A DNA stretch of 38,303 nucleotides from a virus. The notes beneath the pieces were generated by a model. The model ran no database searches and had not been told where the DNA came from. It worked only from the letters and a program-made list of their open reading frames with translations. Both the position numbers and the translations under genes were made by a program. Numbering within the stretch: position 1 is the stretch's first letter; every line of letters starts with the position of its first letter. The stretch spans positions 1-38,303 of IMG/VR virus record IMGVR_UViG_3300022074_000133. The stretch is one strand, 5' to 3'. This document shows, piece by piece, positions 4,502 through 12,944 of this stretch.

Positions 4502-6232
4502 TTATACCTGTCCGCCACCACCTGTTCCACCTGGTGTCTGTCCGCCTGGTGTCTGTCCTGGCTGTCCTGGCTGTGGTGAACCTGGTTCTGGTGATTCAGG
4601 ATCCGCTGTTGGCTCTTCAAACTGGTCCAGATCGCTTGAGATTCCGGACTGTGTTACGCCACCTGATCGTAGTTGTGCGTTCTTGTTCTGTTTCTTCTGT
4701 GGAATGTTGTTTTCTTCTGCCCATAGGTCGGCATTTCTCGCCATCTCTTCTTCACTCAATCCGAGATATCTCTTTAGTGCGAATCTCTTACTCATATACG
4801 GTAGGTCCGCCACTGCTGTAAATGTGTTTACCCTGCTTTGATCCATCTCTGTCTGCCTGTACTGTGCGAAGTTTTGTGGTGGATTAAGTTTAATCTCAAA
4901 CATGCTGTTGTCGATGTTGTAACCTTTGCCTTTGATATAAAGTTTGAACTCTTCGTCGAAAGTTTCCGCCAACATGCTCTGTAATCTTGAACAGTACTTG
5001 TTGAATCTCAACTCTTGAATGTATGCTGTTCCTACCCTACCATCGTTGTACTGTTGTCCACCGTCTTCCGCACCCGTTGGTAGATAAGAACTTGGAATTC
5101 GCAATCCTCTGAATAACTTATTTGTAAAAAATCTTAGATCGTCAATCTCGCCTAGGTTTGTACCACCAGGAAGTGTGTCCACTTTAGATCCTCTACCTTC
5201 CGCTGTCTGTGGGAAGAAGTAATCCTCATTTATACTCATTGGGTTGTAGGTTGCGTCGATGAAGTTGGCCCCACCTGATGCACTTGGAATTCTTCTTTGG
5301 TTGATCTCGTTTTTAACTCTCTCAACGAACTGCATGGCCAAGTGTGTTGGCATGTTACCTACGTCGATGTAGAAAACTCTTCTCTCTGGTGCTCTCTGCA
5401 CCCTGTAAATTATAATTGCGTCTTCTAGTAATTCTTTTTGTTTGTACACTTTGAAAATTTGCTCCAGCACTGATTGTCCAAACGGGAAAAGGTTGTCTAA
5501 ACCATCCGACATCGACATGTGGACCACATGTTCTGCATTTATGTTGTATGCGTTCATTGTCTTGTAGAATCTTCCACCCGTGTTTCCACCTGCAAACCCT
5601 GACATACTGTTTGTGGCACCTGCGTTTGCATAACTTGATCCGTATGCGGCAGTTCCGCCTCCTGTTGTTCCACCGCCACCGTATGTTTGGTTGGGTGTTA
5701 TCTGTGTCGCTGATAGTCTCTGTAGGTTAGGATTGATGTCTCTGATCACATACTGTTCAGGTTTCTTGCCTTCAGACTCGTTGACGACGATCCTGTCAAC
5801 TTTTGCGTTGTCGATGTAGAGCCATTTGTGTGTCTCTGGATCTCTTACGAAGAAACAGTCTCCGTACTTCAGTGCGTTCCTGAATATTCTGAAAATTCTT
5901 TTGTTGAACTTGTTTGACTTCGTCCATTGTTGCAAGGCCTTCTTTAAAAGTTTCACTTCATGTTCTGTTGTCTCATCTTTGAATACAAGATCAAAAGGAG
6001 TTTCGTTCTCTTGATTTTTCTGTGTTGAAAATTCTGCTAGGATGTCCAGTGCGGCGTTGATTTCCGAGTCCGAATCCATTTGATCATACTGGAAGTATCT
6101 CTGTATCCTGTTCGGGTGCCCTGTGTACACATCTGGCAAGTAAGAACTGTAGTTCCTCTTTGCGAAATTTGGCACTTTCTCTCCACTAATGGGAGACATG
6201 TTTGCGTCTTTAAAATATTTTTTCCAAGCCAT
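4502..6232 (-). CDS. 20: Portal vertex protein gp20
   Basis: A 576-residue protein matching the T4 gp20 family (524 aa in T4), the dodecameric portal that starts head assembly, threads DNA and joins the tail. Diagnostic blocks include residues 48-64 (QYDQMDSDSEINAALDI), the LKYGDCFFVRDPETHKWLYI strand near residue 121, the central YIDVGNMP and the LPGGTNLGEIDDLRFF block before the crown. Two low-complexity segments are unusual: a Gly/Ala/Thr/Ser-rich insert at residues about 184-220 and a Gly/Pro/Gln-rich C-terminal tail. It follows the tape measure gene by 6 bases and begins the classic 20-core-21-22-23 order. Confident. Confidence 0.97.
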   Translation of the reverse strand: MAWKKYFKDANMSPISGEKVPNFAKRNYSSYLPDVYTGHPNRIQRYFQYDQMDSDSEINAALDILAEFSTQKNQENETPFDLVFKDETTEHEVKLLKKALQQWTKSNKFNKRIFRIFRNALKYGDCFFVRDPETHKWLYIDNAKVDRIVVNESEGKKPEQYVIRDINPNLQRLSATQITPNQTYGGGGTTGGGTAAYGSSYANAGATNSMSGFAGGNTGGRFYKTMNAYNINAEHVVHMSMSDGLDNLFPFGQSVLEQIFKVYKQKELLEDAIIIYRVQRAPERRVFYIDVGNMPTHLAMQFVERVKNEINQRRIPSASGGANFIDATYNPMSINEDYFFPQTAEGRGSKVDTLPGGTNLGEIDDLRFFTNKLFRGLRIPSSYLPTGAEDGGQQYNDGRVGTAYIQELRFNKYCSRLQSMLAETFDEEFKLYIKGKGYNIDNSMFEIKLNPPQNFAQYRQTEMDQSRVNTFTAVADLPYMSKRFALKRYLGLSEEEMARNADLWAEENNIPQKKQNKNAQLRSGGVTQSGISSDLDQFEEPTADPESPEPGSPQPGQPGQTPGGQTPGGTGGGGQV

Positions 6233-6238
6233 ACTTTA

Positions 6239-8224
6239 TTATACTAGACTTCCGCCCATGTCTGCAAGACTTTTATTTGTTGATTTAGTATTCTTTTCAG
6301 TCATAGTACCTATCGTTACAAGCGTATTTAAGTGGTTTGCAGTTTTTTCTGTCAAAGCGATAAGCTCTCGTGTGTTTGCGTTTAATGTGCTGAGGTCTAT
6401 AGTAGTGCTGTTGTTGGTAATCGTGTCACCTACCGTAGTGTTTGTATTGATGTTTCCACTCCCCAAAGTGCTGACTGCATTTGCTAACTTTTCTGCTAAT
6501 TCGCCAACGTTTCTTTCAGGTAGAACCATTTCTGAACCGTGCAACATCATTGGTGTTCCTGCACCAAAGTCACGGAATCCTCGGGTACCAAACTGAGCGC
6601 CACCTTCGCCCATGTCGTTTTGACCAGGCTTAGGTAGTATGTCATCTATGTTCAGCGTTTCGCTTTCGGGTTTTGTCGTTGTGGGCAACTTGCCTGTGAT
6701 GAGGAATTCTTTGAATTTAGATAATCCTTCATAGAACTTGTCCAATCCTCCACCCTCTTCCACTATGGCTTTTATCTTGTCGTTGAATGCTGATGTAAAT
6801 TCCACCACTGCTTCACTATTGCTATAAAGTACAGGTGCCAACAGTTCGAATCTGTCTATCTGTAGTCTTGATGCAACTCTATCAAATGTGCTTGTGATGT
6901 TTCTTAAATTCTTTATGTTGTCTCCAACAGCGTCTAATTCATCCTGTATTATACTTGGATCTACCGCTGTTCCTATGGCTTCCACCACAGCGTTCAAGGC
7001 ATCTGCAAACTGTCCTGTTACAAGTCCCGCCTGACCAAATGACTCACTATTGTTCATTACGTCCGCTGATATGGTCTTGATTGCGTTGGAGAACGCCACA
7101 GGATCCAAATCTTTTTGGAAAGCCTTTATTGCATCGTTGAACCTTCCATCGGATATAGCGGTCAATTCTTTGCTGGTATCACTGATAGGTGCGCCTAGTC
7201 CTACTACTTCTCTGGCCAGTTGTTTAAGGCCTGGTGGCAGTGCGCCGATCGAATCACGCAATATCGTTGCATCCTCCGCCGCCATCTTGGTCAACTGCGA
7301 TTGGAACACACCGTCCGCGGCCATGGCGGCGTTCTGGTTGTTTAGTTCGTCTACACTTTGGCCAGTCAGTTTACTTAGAATTACTAAATTTTTAGTGTAT
7401 TCTTTGGTTCCTGCTAAAAGTTGGGACTGTGATAAATTGTTTAGGTTACCCCTTGCCCTTTCTAGCTCTAGGAAAGTAGCTAAGAAGCCCGAAGTGTCAT
7501 CTAGTGTCAATCCAAATTTTGCGAATTCATTTTCTGTTATATCCCTTAATTTTGATGTCAGTCCCACTATCTGTGGAATACCTTGATCCACTGATCCAAA
7601 GAATTTTGCCAGCAGTCCTGAATTGGTTCCGATCAGGTCTGTGAACTTTCCTAATGGTAGTGTGGCATCCGCCGCCGCCCTACGTAGCATCACTATGGAA
7701 CTTCCAAATGTTGCTCCTGTTTTGGCCAGCTGTGTGAATGATTCAACGTTGGAATCTATCTCCCGAGCCAGTTCCTTTGTAACTTTACCAAGTCCCGGTA
7801 TGTCTCCAAACCCTGCGTCTATAAAATCCTCCACAGAGCTTATTGATTTAGTGGTGTCTGAAAATGCAAGACCGGTTTTAATGCCTGCAGTTGCAACGCT
7901 TATTACTGCGTCCTTTAAAAAGTTTAGAGCCTTGGCCAATAGTGTCATCACGCCCGCTCCTGCTTTCGCAGTCTTTTGGAATTTTTCTAATGAATTTATT
8001 GAATCGTCAATCTCTTTGTTTAGTTCTTTGGTAAGTTTACCCCTCTTCTTTAAATCTTCCCTCTGGTCTTCTAGGGCTTTGATGGCCATCTTCCTAACAT
8101 TGGTTTCTTGTTTGATGGTCTTAGTTCCTTCCATTGCAGACTTGGCAGATCCTCGCAAAACCCGGGTAAGGTCCTTGAGCTCGGAGGTCATGTCTTTGAG
8201 TAACTGTTCTAATTCTCTGTCCAT
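6239..8224 (-). CDS. Tail tape measure protein (gp29-equivalent)
   Basis: A 661-residue, mostly helical protein with an N-terminal coiled coil (residues 1-80, Lys/Glu/Leu-rich), a hydrophobic stretch rich in Ala/Val/Gly at about 85-125, and a long central helical region. A C-terminal block (GTRGFRDFGAGTPMMLHGSE then MVLPERN, near residue 560) is typical of phage tape measure C-termini. Tape measures set tail length at roughly 0.15 nm per residue, so 661 residues would predict about 100 nm, a T4-like tail (inference). T4 gp29 has 590 residues. The gene is divergent from gp26/gp51, which act in assembly of the T4 hub, and immediately precedes gp20. An AAGGTAAG ribosome binding site lies upstream of the ATG at 8224. 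Sequence identity to T4 gp29 is not obvious by eye. Confidence 0.8.
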   Translation of the reverse strand: MDRELEQLLKDMTSELKDLTRVLRGSAKSAMEGTKTIKQETNVRKMAIKALEDQREDLKKRGKLTKELNKEIDDSINSLEKFQKTAKAGAGVMTLLAKALNFLKDAVISVATAGIKTGLAFSDTTKSISSVEDFIDAGFGDIPGLGKVTKELAREIDSNVESFTQLAKTGATFGSSIVMLRRAAADATLPLGKFTDLIGTNSGLLAKFFGSVDQGIPQIVGLTSKLRDITENEFAKFGLTLDDTSGFLATFLELERARGNLNNLSQSQLLAGTKEYTKNLVILSKLTGQSVDELNNQNAAMAADGVFQSQLTKMAAEDATILRDSIGALPPGLKQLAREVVGLGAPISDTSKELTAISDGRFNDAIKAFQKDLDPVAFSNAIKTISADVMNNSESFGQAGLVTGQFADALNAVVEAIGTAVDPSIIQDELDAVGDNIKNLRNITSTFDRVASRLQIDRFELLAPVLYSNSEAVVEFTSAFNDKIKAIVEEGGGLDKFYEGLSKFKEFLITGKLPTTTKPESETLNIDDILPKPGQNDMGEGGAQFGTRGFRDFGAGTPMMLHGSEMVLPERNVGELAEKLANAVSTLGSGNINTNTTVGDTITNNSTTIDLSTLNANTRELIALTEKTANHLNTLVTIGTMTEKNTKSTNKSLADMGGSLV

Positions 8225-8287: not shown

Positions 8288-8295
8288 TATTTATG
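8288..8295 (-). promoter_or_regulatory. Possible late promoter CATAAATA for the tape measure/head operon
   Basis: On the minus strand CATAAATA (one mismatch to TATAAATA) lies about 63 bases before the tape measure ATG. It physically overlaps the gp26 start codon on the other strand. It would complete a divergent late promoter pair with the exact octamer at 8255-8262. The octamer variant also occurs before gp6. Confidence 0.42.
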
Positions 8296-9162
8296 GATAC
8301 AAAAAACATGGAAAATACTAACCCATTACAGAAGTACTACAGGCAACCGGCCATATACATCAAGTTGCCCAGTGGTGGCAGGTACTATGCCAAGGAGGTG
8401 TTCACCCCAACGGAGACAGGAGAGATACCAATATTACCAATGACCGTGAAAGATGAGTTGGCATTCAAGACACCAGACGCTATGATCAACGGGCAATCAA
8501 CAGTTGACGTGATAAAAAGCTGTGTTCCGAATTTATTAGATCCATGGAAGATGGTTAACTACGACACAGATGCTGTGCTGTTAGCGATAAGGATTGCAAC
8601 CTATGGTGAAACCATGGATGTAAGCTATCGTGTTCCGGTCACAAACGAAGATCAATCACACACAATCAATTTACCCGCACTGCTTGAGGATTTAGGCAAA
8701 GCCGAGATAGTGGACGAGACCACAACAACAACAAACTTCAAGATAACAATAGAACCACTGTCATACAAAACTCTAACTAAAATACAAATTGCAAGATTCG
8801 AACAACAGAAGATGTACGGAACAATAGATAATAGCCAAATGACTGATGAGGCAAAGCAATCGGCATTTGCAAAAAGTTTTGAAACATTGAACATGGTCAA
8901 CTTCTCACTATTAGTTGATTCAATTAAATCTATTACAACTCCAGAAGGCAACACGGTTGTAGACAGATCGCAGATCATAGAATTTTGCAACAACGCAGAT
9001 GCTAAGACGGTTACGGAAATACAAGCAAAACTTTCCGAGCTTAGAGTACAGGCACAAATCCCGCCTTTAAGGATTAAGTCCTCTGACGATCAGATAAAGA
9101 AAGGTGCACCGGCTTCATTTGAAGTGCCGGTAACATTTGATAGCTCAAATTTTTTCGGGTAA
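8293..9162 (+). CDS. 26: Baseplate hub / tail assembly protein gp26
   Basis: A 289-residue member of the T4 baseplate gp26 family (T4 gp26 is 208 aa), with a typical N-terminus, LQKYYRQPAIYIKLPSGGRY, and the following ILPMTVKDELAFKTPDAMINGQ region. In T4, gp26 takes part in assembly of the central hub but is hardly found in the finished baseplate. The frame ends SSNFFG-stop, exactly on a slippery run (AAATTTTTTCGGGTAA) that opens into gp51 in the -1 frame. Start at 8293 is chosen because a late promoter lies 30 bases upstream. An in-frame ATG at 8308 is an alternative, and neither has a strong ribosome binding site. Its neighbour is the divergent tape measure gene, supporting a chaperone role for the tail. 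Confidence 0.9.
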   Translation: MDTKNMENTNPLQKYYRQPAIYIKLPSGGRYYAKEVFTPTETGEIPILPMTVKDELAFKTPDAMINGQSTVDVIKSCVPNLLDPWKMVNYDTDAVLLAIRIATYGETMDVSYRVPVTNEDQSHTINLPALLEDLGKAEIVDETTTTTNFKITIEPLSYKTLTKIQIARFEQQKMYGTIDNSQMTDEAKQSAFAKSFETLNMVNFSLLVDSIKSITTPEGNTVVDRSQIIEFCNNADAKTVTEIQAKLSELRVQAQIPPLRIKSSDDQIKKGAPASFEVPVTFDSSNFFG

Positions 9163-9386
9163 CCCTACTGACAAAGGGTAACTCTGAAATAGTAAGCTAT
9201 CTAAAAGACTTCGACAACCAAGTGAAAAATCTAAAACTGGAAACAATGAAGGTGTGCTGGTTTATGCGTGGAGGTATCACATGGCAGGAGGCACTAAACC
9301 TGTCTCCAGAAGAGCGTGGGGTGGTGGCGCAACTGGTAAAAGAAAACATGGAAACTACCAAGAAAAGCGGTCAACCTTTCTTCTAA
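9144..9386 (+). CDS. 51: gp51 region, -1 frame; probably expressed as a gp26-gp51 frameshift fusion
   Basis: This -1 frame is closed by TAG at 9141-9143 and open from 9144 to the TAA at 9384. It encodes a segment with gp51-like features: YLKDFDNQVKNLKLET, then VCWFMRGGITWQEALNLSPE, ending KKSGQPFF. The first ATG in frame is at 9246 and would give only 46 residues, beginning inside what looks like a conserved block, with no good ribosome binding site. Upstream possible starts are only CTG 9168, ATA 9189 and GTG 9222. A -1 slip at 9147-9156 instead gives a 364-residue fusion: 287 or 288 residues of gp26 plus 77 or 76 new ones. T4 gp51 is an assembly catalyst of the baseplate hub. The coding signal is strong; the expression route is inferred. 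Confidence 0.8.
   Translation, partial: LKFFRVTLLTKGNSEIVSYLKDFDNQVKNLKLETMKVCWFMRGGITWQEALNLSPEERGVVAQLVKENMETTKKSGQPFF
9147..9179 (+). promoter_or_regulatory. Programmed -1 ribosomal frameshift site with downstream hairpin
   Basis: In the gp26 frame the codons are TCA AAT TTT TTC GGG TAA. Two overlapping X-XXY-YYZ heptamers fit this frame: A-AAT-TTT (9147-9153) and T-TTT-TTC (9150-9156). A small hairpin, ACCCT (9162-9166) pairing with AGGGT (9175-9179), follows after 5-8 bases, the spacing usual for -1 stimulators. The gp26 stop lies between. Slippage leads directly into the gp51 frame. Confidence 0.72.
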
Positions 9387-10746: not shown

Positions 10747-11860
10747 AATAAGTTTTTATGGTATCTATGTGTTTGGGTGTCTTTAGTAATAAGTTTTCAT
10801 CACAGAACAGTAATTGACATCCGTCGTCTAATGCTTTTTGGAAAAGGTCAATCCTTTCTTCCACAGGAATTGAGAAATTGTAAATGCTTGGGAAAACTAT
10901 TCCGGTGTTTTCACGAGAAATAAAATCAAACAACTTTGGCATCCAATCGCAATGATGGAATTCGTTAGTCCATTCCTTGGGCTTGATGCCTTGTGTCCTG
11001 CACCAATTCAGAACATATTCTCTGATCATAAAATATGGGGCGGTGCTGATGTATTCGTCGTTGGGGTTAGTGAAAACTAACCAATTCCTATCGTAATCTA
11101 TATCACTTTTATCTAATTGATCGTATTGGTTGGGTATCCTATAAAATGATCCGGGTTTCCTTCGACCAAAGTCTACGGTTTTGTGTGGCATTCGCACATC
11201 AAAACTCATCCTGGTTCTGCCAGTTTCGTTGTTGACATTGCCATGGAGATGTCCCTGTCCGAACAACCAACACTCGCCTACCTTGACATCAATTGGCCAT
11301 GATACTTTTTCACATTCCGATTGTATTTTATCAATTCCCCATTTTTCATGATGGATTTTATCTATCAACTTATGACTGGTGTCCCAATCTGTCACGTACA
11401 TGGTGTTGGTGTCATAAGCATCTGTGATGGGTGTCCAAATAGTGTTAGTCCCGTTGTCGTAACCTGTCCAGAACCCGTTATGGAAGTTCAACAACCTGTT
11501 GATTTTGGCCTGATCCGGAACTACTATCCTAACACCCGCTGTGTACTGCACAAGATATTCGGATGGGTATCTGTCATTGCCTAGTTTGTCCCTAAAAATC
11601 TCTTCCACAAACTTATCCACATCTGCACTGAACTCCTCGGAACGTGTGTAAGATTCTATGTGATGCCTTAATCCTATCAGATCACTAGTTGAGAGAACTT
11701 CATGAATTTTGGTAAGGTCTGTGATTTGTGGAAATTTCTCCTGTGCCGCATTCAGGAACTTCTCTGGCCAATTGTATCTGGACAGATCGTACTGCATTTT
11801 CTTGTTGTCCCACTTCGGATCAAGGTTCTTAAGGTTATATTTTGAAGTTATGTCCAGCAT
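10706..11860 (-). CDS. 2OG-Fe(II) oxygenase, StrG/PhyH-like, with C-terminal extra domain
   Basis: A 384-residue protein. Residues about 100-230 fit a double-stranded beta-helix non-haem iron oxygenase: VRIVVPDQAKINRLLNFHNG (His127), a middle block GTNTIWTPITDAYDTNTMYV, then GECWLFGQGHLHGNVNN (His204/His206) and TGRTRMSFDVRM with an arginine suitable for 2-oxoglutarate. This is the pattern of the StrG/phytanoyl-CoA hydroxylase-like group. Residues about 255-384 form a separate domain I do not recognise. Such enzymes hydroxylate small molecules, sugars or amino acids; the substrate here is unknown. It heads a two-gene minus-strand unit with the SDR and is divergent from the radical SAM gene, 25 bases away. 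Confidence 0.78.
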   Translation of the reverse strand: MLDITSKYNLKNLDPKWDNKKMQYDLSRYNWPEKFLNAAQEKFPQITDLTKIHEVLSTSDLIGLRHHIESYTRSEEFSADVDKFVEEIFRDKLGNDRYPSEYLVQYTAGVRIVVPDQAKINRLLNFHNGFWTGYDNGTNTIWTPITDAYDTNTMYVTDWDTSHKLIDKIHHEKWGIDKIQSECEKVSWPIDVKVGECWLFGQGHLHGNVNNETGRTRMSFDVRMPHKTVDFGRRKPGSFYRIPNQYDQLDKSDIDYDRNWLVFTNPNDEYISTAPYFMIREYVLNWCRTQGIKPKEWTNEFHHCDWMPKLFDFISRENTGIVFPSIYNFSIPVEERIDLFQKALDDGCQLLFCDENLLLKTPKHIDTIKTYYDFYYNDAYHSHR

Positions 11861-11869
11861 ATTAAATAC
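11861..11869 (+). promoter_or_regulatory. Possible late promoter variant ATTAAATAC
   Basis: ATTAAATACTATT lies 17 bases before the radical SAM start codon, in the 25-base divergent gap. The TAAATACTATT part matches the common extension of T4 late promoters, but the first two bases depart from TATAAATA. No other promoter candidate is available for this plus-strand gene. Confidence 0.33.
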
Positions 11870-11885
11870 TATTTTAATTAGTTGT

Positions 11886-12944
11886 ATGGATTTCAGTTAC
11901 CAAGATATCAGAGTGCTACAGGCCGAGATCAGTTCGGACTGCAACGCCGCCTGTCCACAGTGTCCACGTAACATCTACGGTGGCAAGACAGTTCCTAATT
12001 TGCCTATCAAACGGTGGAGGTTGGAAGATTTACCAAAGATGTTTAGGAACAATTTTGTGGCCAATCTTGACTTGGTATATTTTTGCGGCACATACGGAGA
12101 TCCAATGATGAACCCGCAGGTTACACAGATAGCAGACTGGTTCCGACAACGTAACCCTGCAGTGAAGATAGGTATACACACAAACGGAGGTGTGGGGAGG
12201 ACAGACACCTACAAGGAATTGGTAAAGGTAGTTGATTTCATCAGTTTCGGTATAGATGGCTTGGACGACACAAACCACTTGTACAGGAGGAAAGTCAAAT
12301 GGAACCAAGTTATGGAACGTGCAGAAATTTTCATATCAGCAGGAGGTAAGGCAGTATGGGATTTCATTGTGTTTGAACACAATCAGCATCAGGTTGAAAA
12401 AGCCAGGACAGTGGCCGCAACACTGGGCTTCTCAGAATTCAATGTCAAGAAAACTTCACGTTTTTTAAATCGTAAACATCAGGTAATGCCGTTTCAGCCA
12501 GTGTTAGACAAAAATGGCAACGAGGAATACCGGATATACCCTCCATCAAACAGCAAGTACATCAACAAAGAAGTCACTATGCCAGATAAGGAAACACTAC
12601 TACAAACTAAAATTTCCTGTAACGCTCAACGTATCAATGAGGTGTACGTTGCGGCCGACGGGATGGTTTTCCCCTGCGGATGGTTACACGATCGTCTGTA
12701 TGGCCCAGAGGTTGAAAGCACCGAGGATTACGTTAAGATGAAGACCATGCTTCAACAAATTGGTGGCTCACTGCGAGCCAACTGCCAATACAGAGAACTC
12801 CAAGACATAGTGGATGGTGATTGGTTCAAGATGATTTCAGACAGTTGGTATAGCAAAGAGAGGTTCGAGCGTTGTTCGGTGTTGTGTGGAGCCTGTGTTA
12901 ATCCAATTGGTGCACAGAATCAAGACATCAACTACAAAGAGTAG
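11886..12944 (+). CDS. Radical SAM enzyme with SPASM-like C-terminus
   Basis: A 352-residue protein with the canonical CxxxCxxC iron-sulfur motif at Cys19, Cys23 and Cys26 (SSDCNAACPQCPRN). It continues through a radical SAM barrel: IKRWRLEDLPKMF, GDPMMNPQV as the GGE-like strand, and IHTNGG. Later cysteines in a SPASM/twitch-like arrangement are C-x-A-Q-R...FPCGW and ERCSVLCGACVNP near the end, likely ligating an auxiliary cluster. Such enzymes typically modify peptides, sugars or nucleotides. The start at 11886 (MDFSYQDIRV) is chosen because upstream codons run into the divergent oxygenase gene. It converges on the GC-rich gene downstream and overlaps its end by 17 bases. Enzyme class is confident; substrate unknown. 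Confidence 0.88.
   Translation: MDFSYQDIRVLQAEISSDCNAACPQCPRNIYGGKTVPNLPIKRWRLEDLPKMFRNNFVANLDLVYFCGTYGDPMMNPQVTQIADWFRQRNPAVKIGIHTNGGVGRTDTYKELVKVVDFISFGIDGLDDTNHLYRRKVKWNQVMERAEIFISAGGKAVWDFIVFEHNQHQVEKARTVAATLGFSEFNVKKTSRFLNRKHQVMPFQPVLDKNGNEEYRIYPPSNSKYINKEVTMPDKETLLQTKISCNAQRINEVYVAADGMVFPCGWLHDRLYGPEVESTEDYVKMKTMLQQIGGSLRANCQYRELQDIVDGDWFKMISDSWYSKERFERCSVLCGACVNPIGAQNQDINYKE

Follow-up and report, generated by a model that had tools for sequence, protein, structure and literature searches.

Does the gp51-like reading frame behind the gp26-like gene of a marine T4-like phage encode a protein of its own, or are both frames parts of one gene with two products? The question is raised by a virus record of 38,303 bases from an unannotated marine lineage (the window). 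Several further genes of the window are T4-like. These are the portal protein gp20, a head maturation protease, gp46/gp47-like SbcC and SbcD and a late sigma factor. A hub lysozyme and a baseplate wedge protein are also encoded. An open reading frame at 11709-12944 (+ strand) has a radical-SAM-type appearance owing to its Cys motif (SSDCNAACPQCPR) and is a candidate by motif alone. The gp26-like product reached 45.8 bits against PF12322, for which the gathering cut-off is 24.5, and thus belongs to this family. Its gene is the only PF12322 gene in the 38-kb record. The locus comprises the following features.

4502-6232, - strand: portal protein gp20 (PF07230, E 2.9e-110), T4-like context
6239-8224, - strand: candidate tape measure protein of 661 aa, divergent neighbour (position, profile match and annotation of distant homologues)
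8293-9162, + strand: gp26-like gene, short form (TAC-N), 289 aa (PF12322 T4_baseplate, E 7.7e-12; phrog_150 baseplate hub, E 1.3e-17)
9147-9153, + strand: overlapping heptamer A-AAT-TTT, in register, conserved only in the marine clade of the window
9150-9156, + strand: slippery heptamer T-TTT-TTC, most likely shift site, in register (X-XXY-YYZ before the 0-frame stop)
9156-9386, + strand: -1 frame extension (gp51-like, T domain), 76 codons and TAA, homologues in all relatives
9157-9184, + strand: local hairpin (-11.0 kcal/mol), possible stimulator, unproven
9160-9162, + strand: 0-frame stop TAA, 3 nt past the slip site

In the gp26 frame positions 9145-9162 read TCA AAT TTT TTC GGG TAA. The original prediction had placed two overlapping in-frame heptamers at this gene end, and both were located there. 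It had also described the -1 frame as closed by a TAG at 9141 and open for 76 codons thereafter. The sequence bears this out: the frame is shut by TAG at 9141-9143 and then remains open up to the TAA at 9384-9386, the 76 codons being counted from CGG at 9156. The fusion join(8293..9156,9156..9386), in which base 9156 is read twice, was recomputed as 364 aa, in agreement with the approximately 364 residues claimed.

From these and the comparative data below we conclude that gp26 and the -1 open reading frame are very probably one gene with two forms, a 289-aa TAC-N and a 364-aa TAC-NC generated by a predicted -1 slip. Three observations lie behind this conclusion: the slip site is conserved, the -1 frame is under selection as coding sequence, and the homology extends through the junction. 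The majority of ribosomes would stop at 9160 and release the short tail assembly chaperone (TAC-N, G-like) of 289 aa. A minority would slip one base back on U-UUU-UUC (9150-9156), for which the overlapping A-AAU-UUU may be of help in this clade, and would produce the long form of 364 aa (TAC-NC, GT-like) with the gp51 domain at its end. For this phage we infer the occurrence of slippage, its efficiency and the role of each form.

The conservation of the slip site was determined in a set of 165 junctions (130 distinct). A search of IMG/VR with gp26 yielded 78 marine relatives, and a search with S-PM2 gp26 yielded 80 cyanophage-like loci; eleven jumbo phages and several T4-like genera were added from GenBank. 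The set covers the marine, jumbo and cyanophage lineages and five other T4-like genera. T4, CfP1, CPt10, K362, Maynard with its IMG/VR relatives and LR756508, which are without the site, were examined apart from it. In this set, composed of lineages already known to have a -1 open reading frame and the site at the junction, an in-frame T-TTT-TTN was present at the end of gp26 in 165/165 junctions. The proposed check of heptamer conservation across T4-like genomes was thus positive for every junction scanned. The heptamer was TTTTTTC in 127 of the 130 distinct junctions, TTTTTTG in two and TTTTTTT followed by A in one. The codon preceding the two Phe codons was NNT in all cases and specified eight different amino acids (N, S by TCT and AGT, D, H, A, T, R and Y). 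Under gp26 codon usage this rule has a naive log10 P of -35.9, which is no true probability since the sequences are related. The distance from the slip site to the 0-frame stop varied between 3 and 33 nt across the relatives, and site and -1 frame were kept throughout. An open -1 frame with a homologous extension was found in the marine, jumbo and cyanophage lineages as well as in KVP40, phiM7, phiM9, RHph_Y68 and Asswx_1.

The two heptamers differ in their distribution. Of 54 marine junctions 51 had an intact A-AAT-TTT; it is mostly lacking in cyanophages, and jumbo phages do not have it. Three loci (L068, L069 and L072) retained T-TTT-TTC and had lost A-AAT-TTT. Because T-TTT-TTC is retained in relatives where the other heptamer is lost, it is the likely shift site. 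In the marine junctions the codon before AAT was TCA (32) or GCA (19) and no other, compared with background shares of 0.26 and 0.51, respectively. Consequently, A-AAT-TTT is also constrained in the marine clade. The earlier remark on two overlapping heptamers is therefore meaningful for this clade, where both are under synonymous constraint, and the tandem arrangement may help slippage there.

A downstream RNA stimulator is a frequent but not obligatory element of -1 frameshifting and no defining requirement. The hairpin that had been noticed after the slip site exists as a fold, with -11.0 kcal/mol and a z of -2.9 versus dinucleotide shuffles. However, it was not significant against synonymous recoding of the window (p 0.10), and it is not conserved in the clade. 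Its absence from the close relatives in the marine clade and a mean z of 0.01 versus synonymous recoding in 52 marine sequences rule it out as a conserved signal of this clade. The cyanophage hairpin, which begins about 4-10 nt past the slip site, gave a mean z of -2.68 versus synonymous recoding, with p<=0.05 in 37 of 48 sequences, and is under selection. It is conceivable, though we lean against it, that the marine tandem A-AAT-TTT-TTC does the job of the cyanophage hairpin, so that two T4-like lineages would hold the same ratio of short to long chaperone by different signals. The contrast between a tandem slip site in one clade and a hairpin in the other offers a testable comparison of frameshift signals.

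The coding capacity of the -1 frame ahead of its first ATG in the window was assessed over 9156-9245 with 49 distinct marine relatives of the same layout and the window. Differences summed over all pairs amounted to 13,579, 7,717 and 20,286 at -1-frame codon positions 1, 2 and 3, respectively. In the -1 frame 60% of the single-base codon differences were synonymous, compared with 17% and 7% in the other two frames. The suggested examination of -1-frame conservation between the slip site and 9246 hence gave a positive result. Within the clade of the window the FFR motif and eight later residues were invariant across 38 aligned extensions. A tblastn search with the -1 open reading frame matched Atu_ph07 and Phosso over residues 2-79, and the matches to jumbo phages covered the whole frame, with the segment ahead of Met 9246 included. 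The codons of 9156-9245 are thus under protein-level selection, and the gp51-like sequence starts well before the ATG at 9246, as had been proposed. Relatives with an own ATG for gp51 at this point had been named as an observation that would speak against a fusion. The first ATG of the -1 open reading frame wanders between codon 1 and codon 36 in the relatives, and this result came out in favor of the fusion. The model of the extension was predicted to be all-helical (pLDDT 86.8). Comparison of the -1 domain with Pfam and PHROGs gave no direct sequence link.

Some public records treat this region differently. The gp51 domain is annotated as a separate gene at or after the gp26 stop in S-PM2 (L104:3691-3864), KVP40 (L190:2322-2489), Atu_ph07 (L080:6115-6237) and 121Q (L084:4828-5037), and these annotations cut away the conserved FFR segment. 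The annotated gp51 of S-PM2 begins past the gp26 stop; the -1 frame, however, extends upstream of this start without a stop, through an FFR at the corresponding position. The large open reading frame directly after it (L104:3857-7001) contains a phage tail lysozyme domain (PF18013) and has a weak N-terminal match to ADP-ribosyltransferase families. The jumbo-phage records inspected annotate gp26 only, with or without a separate small gene.

A separate small gp51 protein, made by termination-reinitiation or from a start codon of its own, either Met 9246 or a non-ATG codon further upstream, would agree with the annotation in the records of S-PM2, P-SSM2, KVP40, 121Q and Atu_ph07, with the TAATG overlaps in the relatives KVP40 and 121Q, and with the Ackermannviridae, which retain the overlap without a slip site. 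We nevertheless regard it as quite unlikely for the window. The protein-level selection on the codons from the slip site up to Met 9246, the invariance of FFR in the clade and the unconserved first ATG speak against such a product, and reinitiation leaves the invariant heptamer and the NNT codon rule unexplained. Furthermore, the 0-frame stop of several jumbo phages lies 33 nt past the site, within the homologous -1 sequence.

The run of six T itself, present in 130/130 distinct junctions, could alternatively cause transcriptional slippage on T6 (or A3T6), and mRNAs with an extra base would yield the same fusion. Six T are short for bacterial transcriptional slippage. The run is followed by C (G or T in three records), always keeps the X-XXY-YYZ register and never exceeds seven T, and the selected cyanophage hairpin lies at the distance expected for ribosomal shifting. 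Transcriptional slippage is accordingly a very improbable source of the fusion. Homopolymer indels do occur at the site, as the T5 of IME-SM1 demonstrates, and a single ancestral gene broken by a sequencing error or a natural frameshift mutation might be considered on this ground. The same break together with the conserved heptamer in 165/165 junctions refutes this explanation and leaves it practically no probability. Ribosomal -1 slippage within one gene is the reading that we retain.

The IME-SM1 record (KR560069 / NC_054952; L189:2210-2240) shows T5 at the slip site where Mendera shows T6, and over the slip region 14 near-identical Menderavirus records exceed it by one base. Because of these longer records and the T6 of Mendera, the published IME-SM1 sequence probably contains a one-base indel which alters the annotated end of gp26. 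IME-SM1 was initially a candidate for a +1 exception; one T missing from the record explains it, and the candidate was dropped.

Certain phages have no heptamer at the junction. The gp51-like -1 open reading frame is nevertheless retained in the Ackermannviridae (Maynard and 18 IMG/VR loci) and in Vibrio phage K362. Apparently, the gp26/gp51 pair can therefore be expressed in another way too. Some junctions of this type contain a TAATG overlap, and this arrangement suggests reinitiation. In Kuttervirus-type phages (L193:2190-2400; L196-L213 at the gp26 stop) an invariant ATTTTCAT[TC]TAAT[TG]TTTG was observed, and the canonical heptamer is missing. Their gp51-like open reading frame overlaps gp26 in the -1 frame and may use an ATG or ATT over the stop as its start or an unusual shift. 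A PF12322 protein without an accompanying slip site is encoded by the uncultured phage LR756508.

The relationship of the fused products to the T4 proteins was analyzed by HHalign. The marine plus jumbo profile matched the cyanophage profile with E 2.8e-14, and the cyanophage profile matched T4 gp51 with E 1.6e-6; both alignments cross the junction. Direct comparison of the marine plus jumbo fusion profile with T4 gp51 gave no match (E 0.053). By these profile comparisons, the relation of the marine and jumbo products to T4 gp51 runs through the cyanophages. When the extensions alone were compared, the marine or jumbo similarity to the cyanophages was weak (probability 6-15%). T4 gp26 and gp51 are mutually related, since both belong to PF12322 (9e-64 and 4e-52) and match each other in BLASTP (E 2e-6); gp51 bears an extra C-terminal domain (phrog_634). 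With TAC-NC defined as a short form plus a C-terminal domain homologous to gp51, the long form of the window corresponds to a TAC-NC by way of the cyanophage bridge.

The number of PF12322 copies differed between the phages. All searched complete GenBank records with the slip site, including S-PM2, had one copy. Two copies, without slip site, were found in T4, Citrobacter phage CfP1 (pseudo-T-even) and Campylobacter phage CPt10; the latter two phages each have a short copy and one that carries the gp51 tail. The gp26 tree, the root of which is arbitrary, places shifting members on both sides of the deepest split and confines the two-copy members to one of them. This topology fits an ancestral shift that would later have been replaced by duplicated genes.

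The 661-aa divergent neighbour had originally been taken for the tape measure gene. It occupies the same position in the marine and most jumbo relatives and has a profile match (E 5.6e-17) to the jumbo-phage neighbour family. The PA5oct member of this family is flagged ESI-MS/MS, and distant homologues in Erwinia phages, a weak match, are annotated as putative tape measure protein. HHalign comparison of the neighbour with T4 gp29 and with the downstream open reading frames of S-PM2 and KVP40 gave no match. The assignment is no more than plausible, with a weak match to annotated tape measure proteins; a relation to T4 gp29 was not detectable. Atu_ph07 gp701, called tape measure in its paper, has 205 aa in the record and gives no help in testing the neighbour. 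PDB fold searches with both models gave no convincing match and none in favor of a chaperone fold; no match reached E <= 0.001, and the listed Z values lie inside the stated noise of the tool. In a viral fold library T4-like baseplate proteins were found, and an Arthrobacter phage tail assembly chaperone at E 9.8e-3 with a TM of 0.25 only.

The review of Atkins et al. 2016 (PMC5009743) states that frameshifting of the G/GT type is conserved widely among long-tailed phages "except T4". The chaperone identity of the T4-like gp26/gp51 is taken from the literature. T4 gp26 and gp51 are hub assembly chaperones, and gp51 is not found in the final particle (PMC3004832). T4-like tail assembly chaperones were identified by Vladimirov, Gautam & Davidson 2022 (Virology 566:9-15), as cited in PMC10885494 and PMC12846349. 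According to these citations, some T4-like phages have separate short and long genes (PMC10885494), and poly-T slippery sequences occur in T4-like TAC-N genes (PMC12846349). The proposed function of gp26/gp51 as tail chaperones agrees with this literature, as far as it is cited there. Since such chaperones with poly-T sites are already published by those accounts, the two-form mechanism is known in kind.

With the T4-like TAC-N/TAC-NC systems so described the locus shares the PF12322 family, the gp51-type C-terminal domain and the poly-T slippery site. It differs in its unannotated marine lineage, in the constraint on both overlapping heptamers, in having no conserved hairpin and in the position of the gene on the strand opposite to the tape measure candidate. 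Lambda G/GT likewise form a short and a long product by -1 shifting close to the end of gene G, and G and GT are absent from the final lambda particle (PMC5009743) as gp51 is from that of T4. The slippery sequence is a different one, and the tape measure gene lies downstream in lambda, whereas the candidate in the window is divergent. By analogy to lambda, coating of the tape measure protein would be the task of the short form and recruitment of tail tube subunits that of the long form; both would leave before the virion is finished. A comparative argument like ours was made for the TAC locus of Pakpunavirus/Vandenendeviridae (phage Adele, PMC12846349), where the -1 frame is always open and the poly-T motif (GTTTTT) invariant; these are other phage families.

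Our data match the published answer, as far as the citing papers give it: a single gene with a shift serves the relatives of T4, and separate short and long copies occur in T4 and some others. To this we add comparative data on the marine and jumbo lineages, a test for coding ahead of the ATG, the contrast in PF12322 copy number and the difference between clades in their frameshift signals, all of which may overlap with Vladimirov et al. 2022. For uncultured marine phages the locus is a clear example, and the site is shown across jumbo phages. Gene callers should join gp26 and the -1 open reading frames.
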